A program made the translations under genes and the position numbers. Positions 3,566 through 57,167 of a stretch of DNA of 64,000 bases are shown piece after piece. The first letter of the stretch is position 1; each line of letters starts with the position of its first letter. A model generated the notes under the pieces. That model was not told where the DNA came from, searched no databases, and saw only the letters and a list, made by a program, of their open reading frames with translations. This DNA is from Hexactinellida sp. DTS-2022 (taxonomy: Eukaryota > Porifera > Hexactinellida): NCBI GenBank assembly GCA_028753945.1, contig JAPNXP010000010.1:2669042-2733041 (forward strand), read 5' to 3'.

Positions 3566-3706
3566 AATGGTTTCTAATTTGAGTGTGAATTTACTACATG
3601 ACACTAGTGAGAGGTTTCGACAAATTGTAAACTATATGTTATTTGAAAAGAAGACAGAAACTCTATTGTTTCCTGGTTATTGATATATAGTTGTAATCGT
3701 AACAAT

Positions 3707-5305
3707 ATGTTTCATTTGATAATAATGGAATTTATAATTGTTGAAGGAAAAAAACTTAACTCTTTTATCTATGAATCAGATGAATATCTATACATAAAAG
3801 TTCGAGCTTCAGAAAACTTTACTTATCTTAGGTGTACACTGAGTAGAAACTCAGGATGTAAAGGATTTGCGAAAATAGAGCATGCATCAAATACGTTGAT
3901 CACAACTCATGAGCATGACCATGATGAAACTGTCTATAAAAAGGGCGAGTCACTATTGAAGAATAAATTAAAACGAGCTGCTGATTCTTCGTCGGATAGA
4001 CTGCGAGAAGTTTTCAATGAAACTTGTCGAAGTGATCCATGCAGTTCATCAGTAACATTTAGACAAATGGAGAGCAGTATGTGTAAAAGAAGACGAAAAA
4101 TGTTCCCACCTCTCCCCTTGGATCCTCAAGATTTATGTCAGTGTATTCATGACTCCCCTTTTGTGCATTTATATAGAGGAAGCGTCTGTAGTGAAGGTTC
4201 ATATGCAATCATATTTGCATCTGATTTCATGCTACAGAAGATGAAAGATGTTGAACAAATCCAATTTGATGGAACGTTCTATACAGTACCGGCGATTTTC
4301 TATCAACTCTTTACAATATTCATAACGTTTCATGGACATTGTATTCCAGCTATGCACATTTTGATGCAGAATAAAACTGAGAATCTATACACACTTGTTG
4401 TACTAAAGCTACGTGAGCTAATTCCTGATTTTTCTCCTAAAGTTGCTGTCAGTGATTTCGAAAAGGCACCTAGAAATGTATTCGCACATTTTTTTCCTGG
4501 AATAAAAGTATTTGGGTGTTGGTTCCATTTTACTCAAGCCATCTGGAAGAAAACACATTCCTTAGGCCTAGGAAAATTATATAAAAATAATAATACGTTT
4601 GCAAATTGGATCAGAAAACTAATGGCATTGCCTTTATTACCCGAGGATAAGATACCCGAGGATTTCTCAATTTTGGAACAAGAAGATTTTAATCTTAGTG
4701 AAATTGAGAATGAGCTAATTAAAAAGTTAAAGTTTTACTACAGAAAGACATGGATTGTTGGAGAAAAAGCATTGTCAATATTTTCTGCTGAAAATGCAAC
4801 AAATAATGGTGCTGAGACATATCATAAAACTCTAAAATTGTTCGTTAAAGTTCACCATCCAAATATATGGAAATTTTTGTCTGATCTAAATAAGATAATA
4901 CTTGATTATGAAATTGAATATCAAAGGTTAGAACAAGGTCTTCAAATTACCAGAAAATCAAGCAAGAAAAATATCCAAAATGCTGAACGTAGAAAAGCAT
5001 GTAAAGACAAGTTGCAAGATGGAACATTCTCAACTACTCAATATCTCAACGCTATTTCACTAACTATAGGGCGTACTTCTAAAATTTCCCAGGACGATTC
5101 AATTGACGAATCAATTCACAGTGACGATGACACACTTCAAAACACTTGCCTAATTTGTTGCCAAACAATTGAAGGAATATTTGCATTGGTCCCTTGTGGT
5201 CATGCAAATCTATGTCGCAATTGTGGACAGAAATTTATTGATGAAGGCATGCACTGTCCCATTTGCCGTAGTGAGATACTGAGATTAATGCAGATTTTTC
5301 AATAA
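3707..5305 (+). CDS. MULE transposase with N-terminal FLYWCH and C-terminal RING finger
   Basis: About 532 residues from the first ATG (3707); a second ATG at 3725 would give 526. Residues about 10-75 look like a FLYWCH zinc finger (Cys at YLRC and GCKGF, then HEHDHD), a DNA-binding fold common in animal MULEs. The transposase core has Asp188 in FDGTFY, Asp250 in VSDFEKA, the GCWFHFTQAIWK motif and Glu370 in NNGAETYHK, giving a complete DDE set. A C3HC4 RING finger fills residues about 479-520: CLICC, then PCGHANLCRNC, then CPICR. RING domains usually recruit ubiquitin-conjugating enzymes; that role here is inference. There is no frameshift or premature stop, so this copy may be recent or active. 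Confidence 0.88.
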   Translation: MFHLIIMEFIIVEGKKLNSFIYESDEYLYIKVRASENFTYLRCTLSRNSGCKGFAKIEHASNTLITTHEHDHDETVYKKGESLLKNKLKRAADSSSDRLREVFNETCRSDPCSSSVTFRQMESSMCKRRRKMFPPLPLDPQDLCQCIHDSPFVHLYRGSVCSEGSYAIIFASDFMLQKMKDVEQIQFDGTFYTVPAIFYQLFTIFITFHGHCIPAMHILMQNKTENLYTLVVLKLRELIPDFSPKVAVSDFEKAPRNVFAHFFPGIKVFGCWFHFTQAIWKKTHSLGLGKLYKNNNTFANWIRKLMALPLLPEDKIPEDFSILEQEDFNLSEIENELIKKLKFYYRKTWIVGEKALSIFSAENATNNGAETYHKTLKLFVKVHHPNIWKFLSDLNKIILDYEIEYQRLEQGLQITRKSSKKNIQNAERRKACKDKLQDGTFSTTQYLNAISLTIGRTSKISQDDSIDESIHSDDDTLQNTCLICCQTIEGIFALVPCGHANLCRNCGQKFIDEGMHCPICRSEILRLMQIFQ

Positions 5306-12883: not shown

Positions 12884-14190
12884 GTTCCAATGGTTTGCAA
12901 TAATCGCCCATTTCTAATTTAATTGGCAATTGATTACTCCATTTTTGGAAGACTCGCGTCACTAATTGCAAATATCTAAATAAAGTTGGAGAATGCTTCT
13001 ATAGACCTGAGCTCTAGCAGAGTTCAGGTTTTTCCCCATACTAAAGCCCAGGCTTACTTTCTAAAGGTCAATTCAAGTCTGGGGAAAACTGACCTTTCTC
13101 TATGCCTGAACACACATACTGAAAAACTGGACTCTACTAGAGCTGAGCTCTATATAAGTTATTTGATAAAGTTGAGTGTGTTTATAAATACGCAAAAGGA
13201 ATTATAATAGTGGCAATTAAAATCTTTAGTAAAAGAAATAATTAATTAATAGAAATATGGAAAATAAATCTAGAATTAATACACTACCCGGACAAACGTA
13301 TTTGGACAACAATAATCTGTATTCATACATTCAAGTTTCAAGCTGCCTATTAACATTGGTAGATGTTTGAACATGCATGTTTTCATAAAACAATATTTAC
13401 GTATAATAAAATAGCAATTTTTTGAATTTTCATTTTTATGGAGGTGTCAAACACATTAAACTATATAATGATCTAAATAAATTAATAATTTCTGATCATT
13501 ATGAGGAAATGGAATAAACAAATTCTGATTTCACATATGAATTCAACGTGGTTGAATTTTTCTAATTGCGAATTTCAAATTATTACGATAATTTATCCAG
13601 TGATACTGCCAGATTCTGATGTGTCACTTGTGCCACAAGTGGAATGTGAAACCCCCTAAGGTACACCACTGTCTGGATTGTAACTAATTGTGACATATAC
13701 AGCGTTAAATAGTAGGATTAATATTGAAGTAATTCTATTGGTAATGGCAATACTATTCCCATAAAAATGTGCTTACTGTAAACAATTTTCGTAAGGAGCC
13801 CCCGGGCCCCCTCGCTTTGCCGAGTCTCAGCGCATAGGCGTTACGCCACTGTTTGGATGGTTAGTCTACAATTATGGGAAAAGATAACTCATTTCTGTTT
13901 ATACGTTTAGGAATATAATTTCATAAAATAAGTATAAATTCCTATTAACAAGAACAGGAAGAATAAACTAATGCAAGTAAATACATAGTTTATCACTAGA
14001 ATGGAAAGAAATTCGTTATAATCAATATCTGTATGACATTAAAATCTTCGAATCTTGCTTGAGAAGGTAGATTTATTTTCTAAAAGTGTGTCACATCTAT
14101 AATTAGACCACGAAATATCGATAAACTGTCAAATACTTTGCTACCCCGACTTTTGTTCCCATTTATAAGATCAGTCTGTATGTACCAATA
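12884..14190. other. intergenic DNA upstream of METTL5
   Basis: No convincing gene. A GC-rich patch near 13797-13850 ends ACGCCACTG and could be the terminus of an old hAT element, but its partner was not found. The METTL5 promoter should lie toward the right edge; no specific element was recognised. Confidence 0.35.
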
Positions 14191-14291
14191 TTATGCAACG
14201 CCATTCTGACAAATTATTCCTTTCCCATTTATACACTTTTCTACTTGCTCTTCGTTTTATTCTAAATCACTCTAGAATTGATTCTTTTTTG

Positions 14292-14930
14292 ATGTCTTCA
14301 TTATTTACAGAAAAACAGTTAAAGATATTATTATTTCAGGTTGATGGATTTAAAGCACCCAAGATTTATCTTGAACAGTATAGTACTCCTCCCGAAATCG
14401 CTACAAATATTTTAACATTTATTGATAGAAAGTACAATGATCTGCGAGGAAAAAATATATTGGATTTAGGCTGTGGCACAGGTATCCTTAGTATAGGTTC
14501 AAGTTTAATCGGTTCTAACTCAACTGGTGTTGATATTTGTATGAATGCATTGTTGATTGCTAAGGAGAATGCCTTTAAACTCGGTATTAGCAATATTGAT
14601 TTTATTTGTAATGACCTATTAATCAACAAGTTTCCTATTTTTTCCAGACAATTTGATACTGTAATAATGAATCCTCCATTTGGAACTAAACTCAATTCTG
14701 GAATTGATATTCATTTCTTAAATGCAGCAATTGCACTTTCCAACAGTGTAATTTATTCTTTGCATAAAAGAACGACTAGAAAATTTATCTTGCAATATGC
14801 ACAATCAAAAAAGTTACATACCGAAGTTATTGCTGAAATTAGATTGAATATTGAAAAAACTTTTAGATTTCAGATGCACAGTTCAGTTGATATTGATGTA
14901 GATTTAATTAGATTTGAAATTTCGCCTTAA
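14292..14930 (+). CDS. METTL5: METTL5-type rRNA adenine-N6 methyltransferase
   Basis: METTL5 with its partner TRMT112 methylates one adenosine of 18S rRNA. The frame is open from 14193, but the ATG at 14292 gives 212 residues, close to the human protein (about 209), so I prefer it. Numbered from the 14193 ATG, the motifs are: QVDGFKAPKIYLEQYSTPP (the family N-terminus), DLGCGTGILSIG at about 91-102 (SAM-binding motif I), then IMNPPFGTK with N160-P-P-F163 (the target-adenine motif), and a C-terminal DIDVDLIRFE as in METTL5. No stop or frameshift interrupts it. It is the only ordinary cellular gene recognised here. It has no visible intron, although TTATTTCAG precedes GTTGATGG (about 14331-14340) and could be a splice acceptor for an alternative first exon. 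Confidence 0.9.
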   Translation: MSSLFTEKQLKILLFQVDGFKAPKIYLEQYSTPPEIATNILTFIDRKYNDLRGKNILDLGCGTGILSIGSSLIGSNSTGVDICMNALLIAKENAFKLGISNIDFICNDLLINKFPIFSRQFDTVIMNPPFGTKLNSGIDIHFLNAAIALSNSVIYSLHKRTTRKFILQYAQSKKLHTEVIAEIRLNIEKTFRFQMHSSVDIDVDLIRFEISP

Positions 14931-25938: not shown

Positions 25939-27109
25939 ATAGGGAGTTTATTAACCCTATTGGCTTATCTTAAATATTTCTAGTTTTTTAGTTTTTTTCC
26001 TTTTCGCACTCCAAATATGGTAATAATCTTAATAACTCGGAACCGATTGTAGATTTTTGTTTATAGTCGCAGTTTTAGTAATCTTTCATTAAAATAGAGT
26101 TATATTTTGTACTTAAGCTAAAAAGAGACTAAAATAAATGTCAGACGACTAAGTGATAATTATTAGAAAGCTTTTCCTTGCTTCTCAAGCAACCTAATTC
26201 TCTCTCAGTGTCACTATTATTTAATACATATGCCTTGTATGCAACGTTGGTTGCTGTTTGGCATGCAAATAGGTGCATCAATATATGATAAAAGTCTTTG
26301 AAGTATATAGTACAATTTCGTCTACATTCCAGGAAAGTTTTCGTGAGCAGTTATTGCACAATGAAAAAGATTGTATTTAAAGTGGGTATTGATAGCCCAA
26401 CTCGATTAAGCTCGTTTAAAAATTCTGATGATACCTCTCCTTCATCAACATCAGGTTGTCCATGCTTATGAACTAAAAATCCACCAATGTAAACAACTTT
26501 ATGTTTTAATGAATCACTTGAATTTAGCAAATTTGTGTATCTTCGACACTCAACTCATGTAGTAGTTGTATGTCAGTTTCTTCAATATATGAGTCACAGA
26601 CCGAACAATTTCTACCAGTAGTGCCATGGGAAATTATGTCATATTTTATTAATTGGTGAACGTGTTGAATTTTTCCAGCTGATATTATATCTTCAATGTC
26701 GATGTAATAATTTCCGCCGCAACGCTGCCTAGCCTGACCAAAAAACTTTTCTAGAGGATCTTGAGAAAATATAGAAGGAAGAATATATTGGAAATCATAA
26801 TTTTCCAACAGATATTTAGATGCAGCTATATTATTAATGGTTGTAGTCACAAATGCCTCAGCAGTGAATTTAGTCAACTTCTTTTTCCGTTCCCGCCCAC
26901 CAGTCCATTTACAACTTGAAATTACTTCACAGATTTTTTGCAAAGCATCAAAACTTCCGCAATTATCAGACCAAGGAGCACGAGATTCATCTTTAAGTCG
27001 AAAGCAGGAGAATTTATCTTTAACATTCTTCATTTTAAACCACTGCGTTATAAGATTGATGAAAACAAGTGTCCCTTCTTGAAAATTGAAATTGCACTGG
27101 AGTGCTTTA

Positions 27110-28041
27110 CAGTGGCGGCGCCAGGGGGGGCACACTTTTGAAAGATTCTTTAGAAAACAAATATTCTCAGATATTTTTAGCAAAATATGAACAATATTGA
27201 ACATGAACAACAAGATTCATCAGAGTCTACAAACATGAATGCCCAATCAATGTTAAGCGTTAAATGCAACAGTGTTATTAGACCAGTTTTGAATGCGAAC
27301 GGCTTGCGATTCTTGGAGTTTTGTGCAAATTGGGATTAGTTTTCTATACTTTACTGGGGAAATATGTGTATTCTCGATTCCCGAAGGCAACTATGAATCA
27401 GGGTTGGGTTCAAGTACTTTGAAAGTACTTAAGTACAAGTAACAAGTACTCCAAAAAATTTCAAGTACAATTACAAGTACAATTACAATTGAAATGAAAG
27501 TACTTAAGTACAATTACAAGTACTTTCGGAAAGTACTTAAGTACAATTTTAAGTACTTTTGAAATTTAATGGGAATTAATATTGCTGATAGACGATAATT
27601 AGTTCTCTACGTTCAAACACAACAAATATAAATGAACATAATTAAGATCAATCCATATTAGACCTAAGAAACATCAGTGTTTCAAAGTAGTATAGTGAGC
27701 TTGCACTGCAATGATCAACAATAGAAACTATAGTGTTGATCAATAAATTGGCAACAAAGCCAACAATCATTCTAGTTAAGAATAGAAGTTTAATAAAAAG
27801 TACTTGAAAAAGTACTTGAAAAGTAATTTAAATTTCAAGTACATTTGGAAAGTATTTAAGTACAAGTACAAGTACATTGGATTAAACAAAAAAGTACTTA
27901 AGTACAAGTACAAGTACTCAATAATGTGTACTTAAGTACAGAAGTACTTAAGTAAATTGTACTTGAACCCAACCCTGCTATGAATTCCTGCTTTTTTTTC
28001 TAAAAAGGTGTGCCCCCCCTGGGTTCAGGTTTGCCCAGCTG
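27110..28041. mobile_element. hAT-type insertion in the P transposase
   Basis: The left end is CAGTGGCGGCGCCAGGGGGG. An 8-bp duplication GTGCTTTA (27102-27109 and 28042-28049) flanks it, and removing it with one copy of the duplication rejoins the transposase frame (THAAFKAL to QCNFNFQEG). The right end (GGTTTGCCCAGCTG) is a poor inverted match, although CCAGGGGGGGCACAC matches just inside. It carries another hAT at 27399-27977. Confidence 0.85.
27399..27977. mobile_element. hAT MITE of the CAAGTAC family (copy 1)
   Basis: The ends CAGGGTTGGGTTCAAGTAC and its complement are flanked by an 8-bp duplication CTATGAAT (27391-27398 and 27978-27985). The interior is full of AAGTACTTAAGTACAAGTAC motifs. 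It is nested three deep (P, then hAT, then this). The second copy is at 40092-40640. Confidence 0.92.
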
Positions 28042-31126: not shown

Positions 31127-31130
31127 GGGC

Positions 31131-31317
31131 TGTTGCATGAGAAATTGAATTGCCATGAGAAATTGAATATAACCATGGATGCCGTGAGAAATTGAATTGC
31201 CATGAGAAATTGAATATAACCATGGATGCCGTGAGAAATTGAATTGCCGTGAGAATTTGAATACAACCATGGATGCCGTGAGAAATTGAATTGCCGTGAG
31301 AATTTGAATACAACCTG
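31131..31317 (+). repeat. Ginger-like left inverted end, tandem units
   Basis: About three copies of a unit of roughly 57 bp: GAGAAATTGAATTGCC(A/G)T, GAGAAATTGAATATAACC, ATGGATGCCGT. The unit makes an open frame on the minus strand that is not a gene. Confidence 0.9.
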
Positions 31318-31368
31318 TGTAACATAGAATGTGAATCTTTAGTCTCTATAGATTGCAAATAATACTAT

Positions 31369-31464
31369 ACAGTAGAACCTGTCTAATCCGACACTCGGGA
31401 CAGGAAATTTGTGTCGAAATAAGGAGACTTCCGGTTTATAGGGGGTCGAATTACGCAGGTTCTA
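31369..31464. mobile_element. possible TA-type MITE near the left end of the Ginger-like element
   Basis: ACAGTAGAACCTGTCTAATCC at the left and GCAGGTTCTATACT at the right are imperfect inverted copies. TIR resembles that of 32669-32769. Boundaries uncertain. Confidence 0.45.
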
Positions 31465-31616
31465 TACTCGTATTGTTGACTCAATAATTTATATTACTAC
31501 TATAGATACTCACTAATGTGTCCCAATTTTGAAATTTAGAAAACTCAATATTTATTATTATTTAGCAATTATTCACTAGTCAATCGTGTCACTTTTATAA
31601 GGAACAAGACGAACTT

Positions 31617-34600
31617 ATGGAACCTGTTGAGCATCAGGAACTTCGCTCATTCTTGCTAGGGGGAGAATTCCCAAACACAGTGGAAGCATTAGCTCCTGAA
31701 AAGCGAGGAAATGCGCGCAGTAATTTTAAAAGAATGGCTTCAGTGTATCGCGTTGAAAAGGAAAGTGAAAAGTTATTCAAGGTAGCAAACAATTGTCTAA
31801 ATTCGTATTACATCTAAGTATATTACCATTGATGAGATGTTGCCTTAAAACCTTAAATTTTACAATCCCAGGAATGACCAATAGTGGATGCATTATGATA
31901 CTGTTCATAGGATTCTCTGGTTCATTATTGCTCTAATATAGTTATGAAATTGCTGATGCGACCCCACAGGGTTGTTTGATTTAAATCAAGTGATTTAAAT
32001 CGATGATTTTTGTTAATAAAAATCATGATTTTTATCAACCCTGCCGGGTCACCCCCACCATATTAATAAAAAATAATTCTTTTTTTAGAGACTAAAGCTA
32101 CCAAATGGAAGATTGGAATACAGAGAGTGTCCACTTATATCTCAAGATTCTAAAATTTTGCATCTATACCATGACTTACACCACCCTGGTATCAATGCAA
32201 CTATCTCCAATATAAGGAGGGAATATGTGTGGCTACGAATGGCGGATCAAATTAGGCAATATGTGAGTTCATTAGTTTATTATCAAACAAGTATATTTTA
32301 GAAAATATTAATTTGATACATTGTTTTAAATTTAATAGGTTAATTCTTGTCATATATGCCAAACAGCGGCACCTATTTGTTCCAAACCACTGAGATTATT
32401 GCAGCCGATACCACCACCTGAAAGACCGTGGCAGCATATTGGAATTGACCTAGTATGCAACCTGCCAAAGAGCAAATCAGGGTATCTGCATATTCTAGTA
32501 GCTGTTTGCTATCTCAGCAAATATGTAGTATCACGTCCGCTGAAATCAAAAACATCTACTGATGTTATAACAGCACTTCGTGATATTTATCTTACATTTG
32601 GAACCCCAATGATCTTACAACATGATCAAGGTCCAGAATTCATGAGTAGAGTAAGCATACCCAAAGTACAGTAGAACCTCTTTTGTATGAACACGGTTAA
32701 TACGTAACTCCTGGTGATACGAACACATTTTGACGGTCCCCTGGTGTTCGTACTAACGAGGTTCTACTGTAAATTAAGAACCTACAAGTGTAACTTAGAA
32801 TTACATCGAAATTACAAATCTGTAACTTCATCTTTGTAGGAATTCAAACTGTTCAATCAGACACTGAAGATAGAAAATCGTGCTACTACTGCTTACCACC
32901 CGCAGAGTAATGGCTTGGTTGAAGCCCACAACAAAATTATTAAAATGTAAGGAATACGTATATAATTTTCAAAAGAAAAATCATTTTTAACTTTAATTCC
33001 AGACCTTTGTCAAATTCTTTAGGAAACTAGATAAATTTAGAGCAAGCTCAGATGTAGAATGGCCAGATAAACTTAAGCAAGCTTGTTTAGCAGCAAATAC
33101 TCACTTTAAGCGCGCAATCCAAAGTACACCGTTTAAGTTGATGTTTGGGCGAGATTGCAATCCTGAATATTTGTTTCTCAATTGTCACACTGCTACTGAA
33201 GATGAGTCCGATCGAGAAGACATAAATATTACAAATGTTCAGACAAACTTGGATATAAACTGTGACACACTACATGAATGGATTGGTGAGATGGATGTGG
33301 ATACTCTTAGCGACCGCAATACTGCACGTCAGAATATCAGAACTGAACAGGAGAGACAAAAACGTATATATGACGCCAAAGTAGACCATGAAAGGTAATA
33401 CAGTGGAACCTCTATAAGTGGGGGAGCTGGGACGGTGAAAATTTCAATTGCCCCCCATTCCCCGGTTATAAAATTCAATTGGAAAAACATTATATATGCT
33501 ATATTACACAAAATATTCATATAACACACACATTAATGCACGTTCTAGTTATTATTTGTATATTATGACAATTTAGTTAACTGCTGATCTACACTAGGTG
33601 ATTTCTTCTAAAAACATCAGAGTAGATCAATCGAAAATATTTTTTCTGTAGAACTCTTGAGTCGATTTATTGGAAATATTGTATTATTTTATAAGAATCA
33701 TGTTAGGATTTGTCCATTCCCCCCATTTATGGAGGTTGTTTTGTATGGAGATAAAAACTCCTTGAAATTTATGGTCCCCCATTCCCCACTTCCCCGCTTA
33801 TAGAGGTTCATTTGTATGGATATATACGAATATGGTAAAAAAATTCCCCACTTATGGAGGTTCCCCATTTATAGAGACCCCACTTATAGAGGTTGCACTG
33901 TATAAGTTGAGGGATAATTATTAATTTAGAACTTCGACACATTTTATGATTTATCAATAATAGATCAAAGCTTAATGTATCAGATTATGTTCTGGTACGT
34001 AATGTAAGCAGAGAAAAGAAACTTCCAGGAACTAAGCAGCAACCGAAGTACTTAGGACCCTACAAAATTCTGAAAATCACAAAATCTCATCTGTTAATTA
34101 AAACTCCGAAAGACGGTAAGAGGAAAAAGAATATTCCAATACATTTAGCTAAGAAATATACATTGCGTGACCTACAGGTAACTTTTCCCTTAACCCTTGG
34201 AGTAACCTTCGTATATATATTTTAACGAGCCCTTTGGTCTCGGTCGCTTTGCGACAGATCGATTATTGTATAGATTATTGACTATTTGTATCTTATTAGG
34301 GCAAAAAAAGTGATCCCAAATCATTGGTGTCCAAATCAACTGTCAAGGAGAAAATAACTTCTAGTCCATCACCATCTTATAGAGTTGTGAAGAATCAAAA
34401 TACTAAGGACATTACAGAGAATGTAAATTCTGGAATTGATGCTATACTTTCTGAAATTTCTAACCCTGATTTTTTCGCAGATAACTCTATTGACTTAATA
34501 ACTGTAGATATCCCCGAAGTAAGTGAATCTGAAAAACGAATTGAATTGGAATCTGTCATGGATATCCTTAATTCAATGAAAGATTCTATCATCAACAGTT

Positions 34601-35762
34601 TATCCTCTACTAGTACTTGTCAGAATTACACTCTGAATTGGCTAAGAGAGTTAATCTGCACCCAAAAAGACTATTAGAATGGAGGCAACAACATTATCCA
34701 CAAGCGCGTTCCCTTTCTTGCGATTCTTTCGATATCATTGAGATATTAATTAAATGGTATAAAGAAGCATTTAAGGCAGATGTTCCCTATTGGTTGGTAA
34801 CTGATGAAGATCGAGCAAAAGCAGGTTACTGGGATAGAAAAGCAATAGATTACACAACTAAGGTATTATATCCTGCAATCAGCGACATTAATGCTTCAAA
34901 AATTGAACAAACTAAGCAGACAGACACTCTTGAAAATATCTTGAAATCTAGCGATTATTCGACTCAAACAAATGAATTATCTTCTTTGGAAAGTCTCGGA
35001 GTGAATTGGGGAGGGATGTACCTAGGCACTCATTTAATCAATACGTGTTCTATAGATAATATTATAACCTTAATTAGTGTCAACATGGATACTATCATGT
35101 CGGTCATCAAAAGGAAAGTCGTATCTCCCCTGAATGTAATCAGTGAATTTCTCATACTAATTCAAGATAAAGATTTCAATAGATTAAAAAACTTTATTGG
35201 AGAAAAGCTGAAAATTCCTAAACAAAATGGGAATACTTACAATTTATATGGCTCTGAGGGGCCATTTTTACAGTTTCTGAGTAACGCTATTGGGTCATCT
35301 TATTATGAAGTTTCTTACCAATGCTCAAATTGTAGAATTGTTTCAGATAAAATCCTAAATTTGACAACGGTAATACAATTTTCAAACAGCTGTCAGGAAT
35401 CACTCAATACTCAATTGCAAATGCCTTCTTGCCTAAAATGTCGTGATACTACTGCAATTTATGAAATGTTAGAATGCCACTTCACACGATTACCTCTCAT
35501 TTTTATATTGGAAGTTGGCCATCTCAATATCCGAGATGATAAAGGAATTGATGTTACAATCTACGTTAACCACGAACACGAAGTTATTAGCTTTAATTTG
35601 ATTGGATATACTGTCCACACTGTTGGCCATTTTTACCTTAGATGTCTTGTAGATTGCAAGTTTACCTATGATGGGATGACAACACCGAATTTCGCAAACC
35701 TAAATAATTCAAGCTTTAGACCTGATGAAAGAATTAGTAGTATTTTCTATATTTTAAATTAG
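31617..35762 (+). CDS. Ginger-like transposase: H2C2 + DD35E integrase + GPY/F + USP-like cysteine peptidase (8 exons)
   Basis: Predicted exons: 31617-31781, 32089-32262, 32339-32650, 32840-32946, 33023-33394, 33964-34177, 34300-34518, 34614-35762. All introns are GT..AG and the phases agree, giving about 903 residues without a stop. An H2C2 zinc finger (HLYHDLHHPG, then CHIC across exons 2-3) precedes the integrase core: Asp150 (IGIDLV), Asp209 (HDQGPEF) and Glu245 (GLVEAHNK), spaced 35 residues between the last two as in retroviral-type integrases. KYLGPYKILKIT is a GPY/F-type module. Exon 8 has WGGMYLGTHLINTCSIDN (Cys666), zinc-knuckle pairs C758/C761 and C794/C797, then GHFYLRC (His860) and KFTYDGM (Asp874), the order seen in ubiquitin-specific-protease folds. 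The peptidase call is inference. A shorter 573-residue product would result if the last intron (donor GTAAGT at 34519) were retained. Exons upstream of 31617 cannot be excluded. Confidence 0.75.
31967..32043. mobile_element. small hAT-like MITE in intron 1
   Basis: CAGGGTTGTTTGATTTAAAT at the left and ATGATTTTTATCAACCCTG at the right are inverted ends of a 77-bp palindromic element. No clear 8-bp duplication, so the boundaries are probable only. Confidence 0.55.
32669..32769. mobile_element. 101-bp TA-flanked MITE in intron 3
   Basis: CAGTAGAACCTC and GAGGTTCTACTG inverted ends, with TA at 32667-32668 and 32770-32771. Lies wholly within intron 3 of the Ginger-like gene. Confidence 0.85.
33401..33900 (+). 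mobile_element. 500-bp TA-flanked MITE in intron 5 (family B, copy 1)
   Basis: CAGTGGAACCTCTATAAGTG and the near-complement CACTTATAGAGGTTGCACTG, with TA on both sides. A near-identical 500-bp copy lies at 61852-62351. It starts six bases after the exon 5 donor and leaves an intron of about 67 bp when removed. Confidence 0.92.
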
Positions 35763-35860
35763 TAATTTTTCCAGGTCTATTGTTATTCTTTACTATTGTC
35801 ATAATAAAATGAGTAATGAACTATTGTTTGATTGCTTTGAATTGAATTTGGAGAAACAAA

Positions 35861-35938
35861 TTCTCACGGCAATTCAATTTCTCACGGCATCCATGGTTAT
35901 ATTCAATTTCTCACGGCAATTCTATTTCTCATGCAACA
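35861..35938 (-). repeat. Ginger-like right inverted end, tandem units
   Basis: TTCTCACGGCAATTCAATTT units with one CATCCATGGTTATATTC segment, the reverse complement of the left end but with fewer units. Ends TCTCATGCAACA. Confidence 0.9.
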
Positions 35939-36567
35939 GGGCTTCCTTAGCAATAACACTGTAGTGTTGAAATTGACTTAATTAATTCAAGGAAACTGTA
36001 CAAGCTAGAGTTTCAAAAACTTCTGAGTAATTTCTTAACCACTATTAGAAAAAAGTGATGCATTTCTGAATAAATGGTGCTAGGACATCTTGCCGAAAGG
36101 ATATCTTGCCGAAAGACATCTTGCCGAAAAGACATCTCGCCGAAAGGACATCTCGCCGAAAGACATTGTGCCGAAAGCCATTGAATATTAATCAGGATCG
36201 TAGCCAAGGGGGTCTGAGCCCCCGTGATAATTATTAAGGTCCACTTGAATTCTGTTGACATTGCCTAGGATTTTCATAATATGTATAGCTCCCACTTGCA
36301 ACTGTCATTGCCCCACCCACTAATACTTTCTGGCTACAGGTCTGATATTTATTGTAATAATTAACAACTATATACCCCATTAACTAGTTTAGAGTTGAAA
36401 TAAGTTTAATTATATGAGTAAGAAGTGATAACATGAAAAAAGAAATATTAGAAAGATAAGTTTTGTGATATGCCGCGCAGATATTCTAGATGTGGAATAT
36501 ATATATATATATATTCATCAACCAGCTTCTCTACACGTTTATTCAATTGGAGAACTTTGACTGTGAC

Positions 36568-54735: not shown

Positions 54736-57167
54736 CAGTGGTTCCCAACCTTTTTTAAGTACTGTACCCCTAATGCATTTCAAGGCAACCTAAAGTACCA
54801 CCTACTACACATTCAATCGTGGTAAACCCCAGATCATGTTTGATTGAGCTAAATTAGGAAGAAATTGTCTACAGGTCCATATATATCCTAAATTAATTAT
54901 ATAATGTCGAATCAAATATAAGAACTAGTGTTCTCGACTTTATCAAAACTAAAACTAAAACTACTGAATAAATGCTTCTCAATGGGACACTTGTGCCTGT
55001 TTCTCACTCAAAAGTTTTGTGAATCTTGGAGAGATTGTTGCAACAGCTGTGGCCAGGTTAGTTTCCAGGTTGAGTCTGTTCCTGTTCTTAGTCTTGAGAT
55101 GGGTCATTGCAGAGAATGTCACCTCACACAACTATGTAGATCCGAAGGGCAATAGTTCATTCAAAGCATGTTTTCCCAATTCTGCATACTCTTTCCCCAC
55201 ATTACTCCAAAACTGGGTCAGTGGCGTGCTTGAGTACTGCATCTTTAGCCCCTTATCTGTGGTCACGTCTATAAGGTTTTCTTGTCTTTTGGCAGTAATA
55301 CTGTTGTTAATGTCCACCGTAAATGGATTACGTATCCAGTCCAGTTTGGAGGACTTGTTTTCAATGTCAGGGAATTATGAGTTAAACTCATTCTTGAGTT
55401 TGGATAGATGTGTGTGCACTATTTTAATAATTGGAGATCTGTCACATGCACCAGTAGCAAGGTATGTGTCCAGCTGTAGGAAACAGCTTGTATCACCATT
55501 TTCACATTTGCTCTCCCAGAGCTTGATCTTCTCCATGAATCCACATACTTTGTCAAAAAAGTTAAGAACATGCTTATCTTTACCTTGAAGAGCGAGATTC
55601 AGCTCGTTGAGTTTGTTGAAAATATCGGAAAGGTATGACAAGCGAGCTACCCAGCCAGCATCGTCGAACCTAGCTACAAGGGTGTGTGTGTGCTCCGTCA
55701 AAAAATCCCTCACTTCATTGCGTAGCTCAAATAACCACTGTAAATTTTTCCCACGGGATAACCAACGAACATCGGTATGAAGGAGTAGCTGTTGATGCTT
55801 AGACCCGCGGTCAAGACAAAATGACTGAAACAATCTATGATTCAAAGCCCTGGACTGTATGAAATTGATCACTTTTACTGCGTCATTTAAAACATCGTTT
55901 AACTCTGAACTCATCTTCTTACTGGCTAACGCTTCTCGGTGAATAATACAGTGTAGCCATTCAACATTAGGGTTTACCTTCTTGATGTGCGCCATTAATC
56001 CATTCAATCTGCCGGTCATGGCTGCGGCTCCATCCGTGCACACATGACTACAGAATTTCCAATCCAGTTTGTATTCAGAGAAAAAATTGTCAATAACATT
56101 AAATATATCTTCACCTGTAGTTCTTCCTGTTACCTGCTTGCAAAATAGAATGTGCTCGTTAATCTCTAAATTGTCTTTATAACGCACAAACGCAATTAGT
56201 TGCGCTTTCCCACTGACATCTGTTGATTCGTCAAACTGTAGAGCGAAAGTACCAGACTCTTTTAATTTATCCACCACTTGTTCAATAATATCGACCCCCA
56301 TGTCATTGATCCGACCGCAGACAGTATTATTTGACAATGGAACAGTCTTCAGCACATGAGCTGCTTTCTTATCAATCATTATTTCTGCGAGAATAACAGC
56401 AGCGGGCAAGATAAGATCTTCTGCTATGGTGAATGGCTTTTTAGATTTAGCTACTAGTAGCGACACAGCATATGATGCTTCCAAAGCTTTCGTTGAGATT
56501 GATGTTGCTCGCTTGATTTGTTCTTGGCTTGCCTTAAATTCTTCTAGCTTTCGATGGAAAAACTCTGCGGGCTTACCCTCACAAGAGAGATGCCTGGTGC
56601 TTAGGTGGCGATGTAAATGGGAAGGTTTCATGCAATTATTAGAAAGCACCTCCCCACAGAGGAAACACAATGGATTGGGTGGCTCTGTGGTTGTGGAGAT
56701 AAATCCATCGAGGACATATTGTTTATCAAATTGACGATGTTTTGCCTTCTCAATTTTCATTTTCTTCAGGACGGGTTCTCCAGATTCGGAAGTACTAGCA
56801 CCACTGTTGCTGCTGTTTCTGGATGAACCAGGGCTCAGCCATTTATCCATAGTTAGCAGAGAGAATTGGTAGTTAGCAAGCTAGCAATGAGAATTCAGTC
56901 CGATACTAACTCAAATGCGTTAGTAATCGGGGTACAACTGACAGAATCCGAAAGGAAACTGAAAGTCGCGATGCCAAAAAGTATTTAAGATTCAAATAAT
57001 ATATTGTGTAATACAGTACTCTGGTAATCTTTTTCATTAAGAGTCTTAAATAGTTATACTGAGAAATTCCTATCAATATTATTTGTACATCTTAAAGATC
57101 TCACGTACCCCCTGAGGGGCGCTCAAGTACCCCTGGGGGTACGCGTACCCCCGGTTGGGAAACACTG
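54736..57167 (-). mobile_element. hAT element, ZBED type (full length, two stops)
   Basis: CAGTGGTTCCCAACC at the left and GGTTGGGAAACACTG at the right, flanked by an 8-bp duplication CCTTAAAG (54728-54735 and 57168-57175). The length is 2,432 bp. One minus-strand transposase frame runs almost its whole length with two in-frame stops. Confidence 0.95.
54979..56850 (-). pseudogene. hAT transposase (BED finger, ZBED5-like) with two nonsense codons
   Basis: A single frame of 624 codons from ATG at 56850 to TGA at 54979. It is broken only by TAA at 55377-55375 (after KLKNEFNS) and TAG at 55134-55132 (after LLPFGST). Near residues 60-88 is a BED-type zinc finger (CFLCGEV, then HLHRHLSTRH). A hAT catalytic Asp is in LQFDESTDVSG (about 205-215) and another in CTDGAAAMTG (about 270-280). 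The C-terminus after the stops, including LCEVTFSAMTHLKTK and RNRLN, is the hAT dimerisation region. The first 491 residues remain open. Close to vertebrate ZBED5-type proteins by pattern. Confidence 0.92.

Follow-up and report, generated by a model that had tools for sequence, protein, structure and literature searches.

Ginger1 DNA transposons encode a gypsy-type integrase, and in all but one published family the transposase bears a C-terminal OTU or Ulp1 protease (Bao, Kapitonov and Jurka 2010, PMC2836005, cited throughout from excerpts of its text). These protease domains were suggested to activate DNA-repair factors, and the role of ubiquitin and SUMO proteases in Ginger transposases has stood as a question since their description in 2010. 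That Ginger transposases can be paired with a ubiquitin/SUMO peptidase is, in general terms, already published (PMC2836005). We describe here an element within a 64,000-nucleotide stretch of the genome of Hexactinellida sp. DTS-2022 (assembly GCA_028753945.1, contig JAPNXP010000010.1, positions 2,669,042 to 2,733,041), referred to in its entirety as the window. The element is probably a Ginger-type cut-and-paste DNA transposon, with one protein that combines a gypsy-type integrase, a linker and a USP-fold cysteine peptidase.

Several published Ginger1 features recur in the window element, as far as the excerpts of PMC2836005 describe them: a gypsy-type integrase with H2C2, DDE and GPY modules, introns, and a C-terminal protease from the ubiquitin/SUMO field. 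Its terminal inverted repeat (TIR) arms of about 82 bp, beginning with TGTTG, fit the Ginger1 range of about 40–270 bp with TGTNR ends, and the 4-bp target-site duplication of Ginger1 is matched exactly in 15 of the 21 family elements. The initial reading as a Ginger-type transposon is supported. Other features differ. The Ginger1 duplication is CCGG or CCGT/ACGG, found in none of the 15 exact duplications of the window family; Ginger1 proteins measure 500–800 aa, against about 900 aa here; and the protease has a USP fold instead of an OTU or Ulp1 domain (PMC2836005). Of the YPYY motif that precedes the zinc finger in Ginger1, according to the same excerpts, an aromatic-Pro pair can be seen by eye in the window element and in relatives L012, L016, L019 and L022 (L-numbers denote loci in the host genome), not in L010, the later aromatics being hard to read. 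The element would work as Ginger1 does, but we call it "Ginger-like" because it lacks two published Ginger1 features (a CCGG or CCGT target and an OTU or Ulp1 domain), and because it was assigned by features and not by a tree with published Ginger1 members.

A preliminary description of this DNA knew of no described element with the same pairing. This holds for the USP class alone, Ginger1 with OTU or Ulp1 being known: no Ginger transposase carrying a USP-class peptidase was found in the open-access literature searched, consulted in part (PMC2836005, PMC10045372, PMC12863088, PMC10282587; Repbase lay outside its scope), nor was any account of module behaviour or of one genome holding all three peptidase classes. 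Trichomonas vaginalis likewise has a DNA transposase fused to a peptidase of the C19 type (XP_001314237.1, transposase_11 with Peptidase C19); compared by its published description (excerpts of PMC2836005), this protein differs in transposase family and in its protist host.

An integrase and a peptidase in one protein

The eight exons first proposed for the window element join in frame into 903 aa, with GT-AG at all junctions. Pfam recognizes Integrase_H2C2 (1.2e-15) and rve (1.1e-11) in the resulting protein, D150, D209 and E245 are present, and GPY lies at residue 408, which bears out the H2C2 finger, integrase triad and GPY/F-type module of the preliminary description. Introns 1–6 are supported because the frame breaks of the related copies L026, L027 and L028 fall at or near the window exon limits: their matching frames end at or near the same residues, not every exon being found in each copy.

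The seventh intron, supposed at 34519-34613, did not survive comparison. Across it, the closest copy, L026, is identical to the window at 219 of 222 bases with one gap base, which sits in the window copy when compared with both L026 and protein P0001; P0001, 87% identical, runs through uninterrupted, and single-frame relatives code here for a conserved stretch. Because all of these read through, the window copy has a frame break at this position, and a splice from 34518 to 34614 is not needed. Thus the in-frame reading of 903 aa stands, whereas its exons 7 and 8 appear from these alignments to be one exon, giving the family seven. The GT..AG could in principle be spliced, masking the frame break, and would then remove conserved sequence. 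The window element is a slightly damaged copy; a Trp ahead of TYDG, found in 15 of the 17 sequences having a residue there, is missing from it. Stops occur elsewhere in L026.

Fusion of the two parts is best seen in the relatives. The exon-8 protein has at least 110 matches in the host genome (112.4 Mb, 18 contigs), including the window's own (262 candidates, 108 scored), of which 20 places were fetched with flanks. One open frame of 792–931 aa covers most of the window protein at 10 of these 20 (L010, L012-L019, L022), and two more, L024 and L025, hold both parts in one 972-aa frame with a weak integrase match. Both parts thus share a frame in 12/20 relatives, representing about eight families, L012-L015 being near-identical copies; at the other eight places the parts lie in separate frames or exons. 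P0002 (rve plus USP-like domain) and P0021 are single predicted proteins. The fusion of a USP-fold cysteine peptidase to a Ginger-type integrase is real and, as read from these frames, a trait of the family.

Both halves are under selection, which in most pairs is slightly stronger on the integrase side. For eight single-frame proteins, every pair (28 in all, the near-identical L012/L014 omitted) was compared; synonymous sites are at or past saturation (proportion of differing synonymous sites, pS, 0.71–0.94), while nonsynonymous divergence (dN) is 0.20–0.44 for integrase plus linker and 0.23–0.52 for the peptidase.

The 972-aa frames (L024:3407-6322 and L025:3436-6351) carry the same USP domain behind a distant integrase (rve 8.8e-5, below the cut-off), and the peptidase thus occurs with a second integrase lineage as well. 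Their cysteine-rich stretches resemble a PHD finger and a CXC motif by eye.

Three protein searches yielded 32 distinct relatives, the one named relative being LOD99_15156 of the glass sponge Oopsacas minuta, in which an integrase end precedes the USP domain. Its residues 8–57 share 30 of 50 positions with the integrase end of L028, and residues 16–67 match that of the window (E 2e-8).

The peptidase domain

In the predicted structure and in fold searches, a USP fold spans the whole domain. This was one of two checks on which the preliminary description had staked its claim of a ubiquitin-protease-like peptidase (no papain-like fold would have counted against it), and the claim stands, supported also by profile comparison and by the single-frame copies. 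The family profile matches a host USP profile built from four USPs at 83%, compared with 0.1% to OTU and 0.2% to Ulp1. The order of Cys box, CxxC pairs, His and Asp, as read from conservation and order, is that of USP peptidases (C19), and the zinc-ligand Cys of the two CxxC pairs are kept in 18/18 sequences. With USP35, USP46 and USP12 the domain shares both this order and the whole-domain fold; it differs in being about 10–15% identical to USP deubiquitinases, under the Pfam UCH cut-off, and fused to an integrase. USPL1, a SUMO isopeptidase of C98, scores a Z slightly below the best USPs, and Pfam scans returned no Peptidase_C98 row. OTU and Ulp1 chains are absent among the best 50 fold-search matches listed, which by itself excludes nothing.

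Several results weigh against a USP assignment. The Pfam UCH cut-off was unmet, with one of 13 members matched (E 0.0059, 16.7 bits vs 23.9), and neither exon 8 nor the family profile matched anything but unrelated chains in sequence searches of the PDB (E 0.48 or worse). Foldseek TM-scores are moderate, the top match reaching 0.53 by query, and a first structure model (382 aa, 12 sequences) was poor (pLDDT, the predicted local confidence, 46) and was discarded. Of five host USP candidates fetched, L064, divergent and lacking the NTC Cys, was excluded from the main profile; with it as a fifth USP the match falls from 83% to 66%, and to each of the four USPs taken singly it is below 5%. A forced global alignment to USPs left the Cys box unplaced, and for this reason the assignment of the nucleophile relies on the NTC motif, its conservation and its position just before a helix in the model.

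We regard it as likely that the domain is an active isopeptidase. The alternative that it is a pseudoenzyme, which does no more than bind ubiquitin or a relative and so anchor the transposase on modified chromatin, seems unlikely: it would agree with the substitution of His860 in 2/18 sequences and with the unreached Pfam cut-off, but Cys and Asp are retained in 18/18 and His in 16/18 among families close to saturation at synonymous sites.

Probable exchange of the peptidase between elements

Trees of the two halves disagree. In the integrase tree, support of 100/100 joins the window to L026, L027, L028 and L055, a fragment from the OTU side (28% filled); in the peptidase tree the window groups with L009 (100/99), whose integrase falls in a different group (89/97). 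A peptidase tree constrained to unite window, L027 and L028 is worse by 38.8 log units (approximately unbiased (AU) test, p 5e-6), and an integrase tree constrained to unite window, L026 and L009 by 238.8 (p 1e-7). Raw identities flip in the same manner. Relative to L027, the window is 36, 58, 77, 54 and 54% identical in exons 1, 2, 3, 5 and 6 (exon 4 gave no match), has no significant match over residues 449–640, and drops to 31% in the peptidase; relative to L009, it is 23–42% identical in exons 2–6, without significant match over residues 449–521, and then 68% over residues 522–640 and 46% in the peptidase. This flip places the switch point after residue 448 and before about residue 522, on the boundary of exons 6 and 7 or shortly past it. 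A single TIR pair with an exact duplication encloses each of L027 and L028, and one with 3/4 bases matching encloses L009.

The peptidase part thus seems to have been exchanged between elements, and we infer from these comparisons that it is a module carried on the last exon. It is rather improbable that the conflict arose artefactually from long branches and uneven rates, with no exchange. The tree program flagged long branches for L024, L046, L009, L055 and L028, warning that such joins may be false, and the groups tested were picked after the identities had been seen; against this stand the rejection of both contrary clades and the flip in identities, which is visible without any tree.

Other peptidase classes occur beside Ginger-type integrases in the same genome. 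A search for OTU domains gave at least 150 matches (440 candidates, 150 scored), and one for Ulp1 gave 17 (34 scored). A Ginger-type integrase piece lies upstream on the same strand at 5 of the 10 best OTU places (L055, L057, L060-L062), the integrase end sharing the open frame of the OTU domain in L060-L062, and at 2 of the 10 best Ulp1 places (L046, L047). Known as integrase and peptidase pieces, these loci resemble the window element in that a deubiquitinase or SUMO-protease domain follows the integrase, and differ in a peptidase fold unrelated to its own. USP, OTU and Ulp1 classes would thus all accompany Ginger-type integrases in one genome, where the three versions could be tested side by side. 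Many of the OTU matches lie within repeated open frames of 226–227 or 1260 aa.

Possible role in transposition

In the mechanism we favour, the gypsy-type integrase would cleave the element at its TGT..ACA ends and integrate it with a 4-bp stagger. The peptidase may act in cis at the transposition complex, a step to which we give an even chance, stripping ubiquitin or SUMO off the transposase itself or off proteins of chromatin and repair where the DNA is cut; cis action is preferred because the peptidase belongs to the same chain as the integrase. Deconjugation would then allow the complex to survive or the DNA to be repaired. As an alternative to activation of repair factors, the peptidase could shield the transposase from degradation. 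Whether the transposase or its complex is the main site of action is likewise evenly balanced.

Cysteine peptidases of other elements cut their own polyprotein. By analogy with these and with retroviral proteases, the peptidase, located in the same chain, might cleave the transposase and free the integrase. We consider this improbable: the fold is that of enzymes acting on ubiquitin-like proteins, and Pfam named no ubiquitin-like domain in the full-length window or L010 proteins. The discontinuous frames of the window copy could also suggest that exon 8 belongs to a host gene next door, or came in by chance, and is never joined to the integrase, a very remote prospect in view of P0002, P0021 and the shared frames of 12/20 relatives, and one that the single-frame copies refute for the family.

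Deconjugation matters for transposition, to judge from a third and dissimilar class of peptidase at this position, selected alongside the integrase, together with signs that the peptidase travels between elements as the last exon. Ginger-type transposons might need ubiquitin/SUMO-removing activity and not one particular enzyme, with USP, OTU and Ulp1 modules swapped as the last exon at one intron; we put this forward tentatively, at somewhat less than even chance. If true, it would amount to phage-like modular evolution among integrase lineages, driven by an important transposition step.

Element ends and copies

The element starts at 31131 with TGTTGCATGAGAAATTGAATTGCC (TGTTG first), and the inverse of this start closes it at 35938. 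The outermost bases of the two ends are complementary at 23/24 positions, and the inverted-repeat arms of 83 nt (about 82 bp without the flank base) at 95%; with GGGC on either side (Table 1), these are the boundaries originally proposed. The end repeat unit occurs six times in the window, always within the element, against an expectation of 0 from 100 shuffles (window GC 33–41% in 8-kb blocks).

Exact duplications at TGT..ACA ends belong to the window, L010-L019, L021, L022, L027 and L028, and the duplication of L009 matches at three of four bases. The end-pair test gave none for L020, L023, L024, L025 and L026; the ends of L026 are visible otherwise, flanked by GTAC and CTAC. The ranking of candidate end pairs put exact duplications on top and so slightly favours chance matches. 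Among the 10 single-frame Ginger-type copies, identity of the end repeats is about 92–100%.

Further copies with the same ends, called for in the preliminary description, were found: the right end has 36 matching pieces in the genome, four of them within the window (one scan of the genome contigs for the element end gave no match, the 36 pieces coming from a separate search). At 11 of the 14 such places fetched, inverted pairs span 418–607 bp. These short copies are non-autonomous; their duplications are exact in three (GGCC, GACC, GCCC), one base off in two and missing in six, which have just two flank kinds among them. A Ty3/gypsy retrotransposon remnant, as the integrase type might suggest, is scarcely credible, as the terminal repeats are inverted, not direct, and come with 4-bp duplications, the short copies bear the same inverted ends, and a reverse transcriptase was not among the Pfam matches of the window protein or of the single-frame copies L010 and L024.

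Table 1. Features of the element in window coordinates; residue numbers follow the eight-exon, 903-residue reading.
Feature	Position	Strand	Basis
Left target-site duplication GGGC	31127..31130	.	by sequence
Whole element, 4,808 bp	31131..35938	+	TIRs, target-site duplication, near copy L026, short copies with same ends
Left terminal inverted repeat	31131..31212	+	repeat arm I1 minus one flank base
Subterminal tandem units of 47 bp, left end	31138..31315	+	repeat family D1
Exon 1, residues 1-55	31617..31781	+	frame 95% identical in L026
Exon 2, residues 56-113, first part of H2C2 finger	32089..32262	+	exon model, Pfam
Exon 3, residues 114-217, end of H2C2 finger and integrase core with D150, D209	32339..32650	+	exon model, Pfam, relatives' alignment
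Exon 4, integrase core with E245	32840..32946	+	exon model, Pfam, relatives' alignment
Exon 5, up to residue 376	33023..33394	+	frame 100% identical in L026 across 123 residues
Exon 6, residues 377-448, GPY module	33964..34177	+	exon model, relatives' alignment
Last exon of the family (exons 7 and 8 plus supposed intron), linker and peptidase	34300..35762	+	one-base length difference in window copy
USP-fold peptidase domain, residues 645-903	34983..35762	+	predicted structure, fold searches, profile comparison
Cys666 codon, likely nucleophile, NTC motif	35046..35048	+	18/18 in alignment
His860 codon, likely catalytic His	35628..35630	+	16/18 in alignment; in register with USP His
Asp874 codon, likely catalytic Asp	35670..35672	+	18/18 in alignment
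Right terminal inverted repeat	35857..35938	-	repeat arm I1 minus one flank base
Right target-site duplication GGGC	35939..35942	.	by sequence

Other features of the window

Short inverted-repeat insertions with the motif TACAGTRGAACCT lie at 31363-31464, 32667-32771 and 33398-33903, inside the element, in its 5′ untranslated part and two of its introns (repeats I7-I9, I23), and are likely small non-autonomous elements. Immediately beyond its right end, at 36084-36176, is a minisatellite of 15–16-bp units (GACATCTTGCCGAAAG; repeat D4). One 552-aa open frame at 3647-5305 (+) encodes a MULE transposase (Pfam 1.2e-13) that matches FLYWCH weakly and has a RING finger (8.2e-10) at its C terminus. 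Here a finger of the ubiquitin-ligase type is fused to a transposase, within the window that also harbours the element with the USP domain. The host gene closest to the element is likely a small methyltransferase gene at 14169-14930 (+; Pfam MTS 3e-12), which we take to be METTL5-like. Two transposon remnants lie on the minus strand, a DUF4371 protein at 55378-56880 (1.5e-5, below the cut-off), presumably hAT-like, and a TNP-like RNase H fragment at 26527-27216 (4.7e-6).

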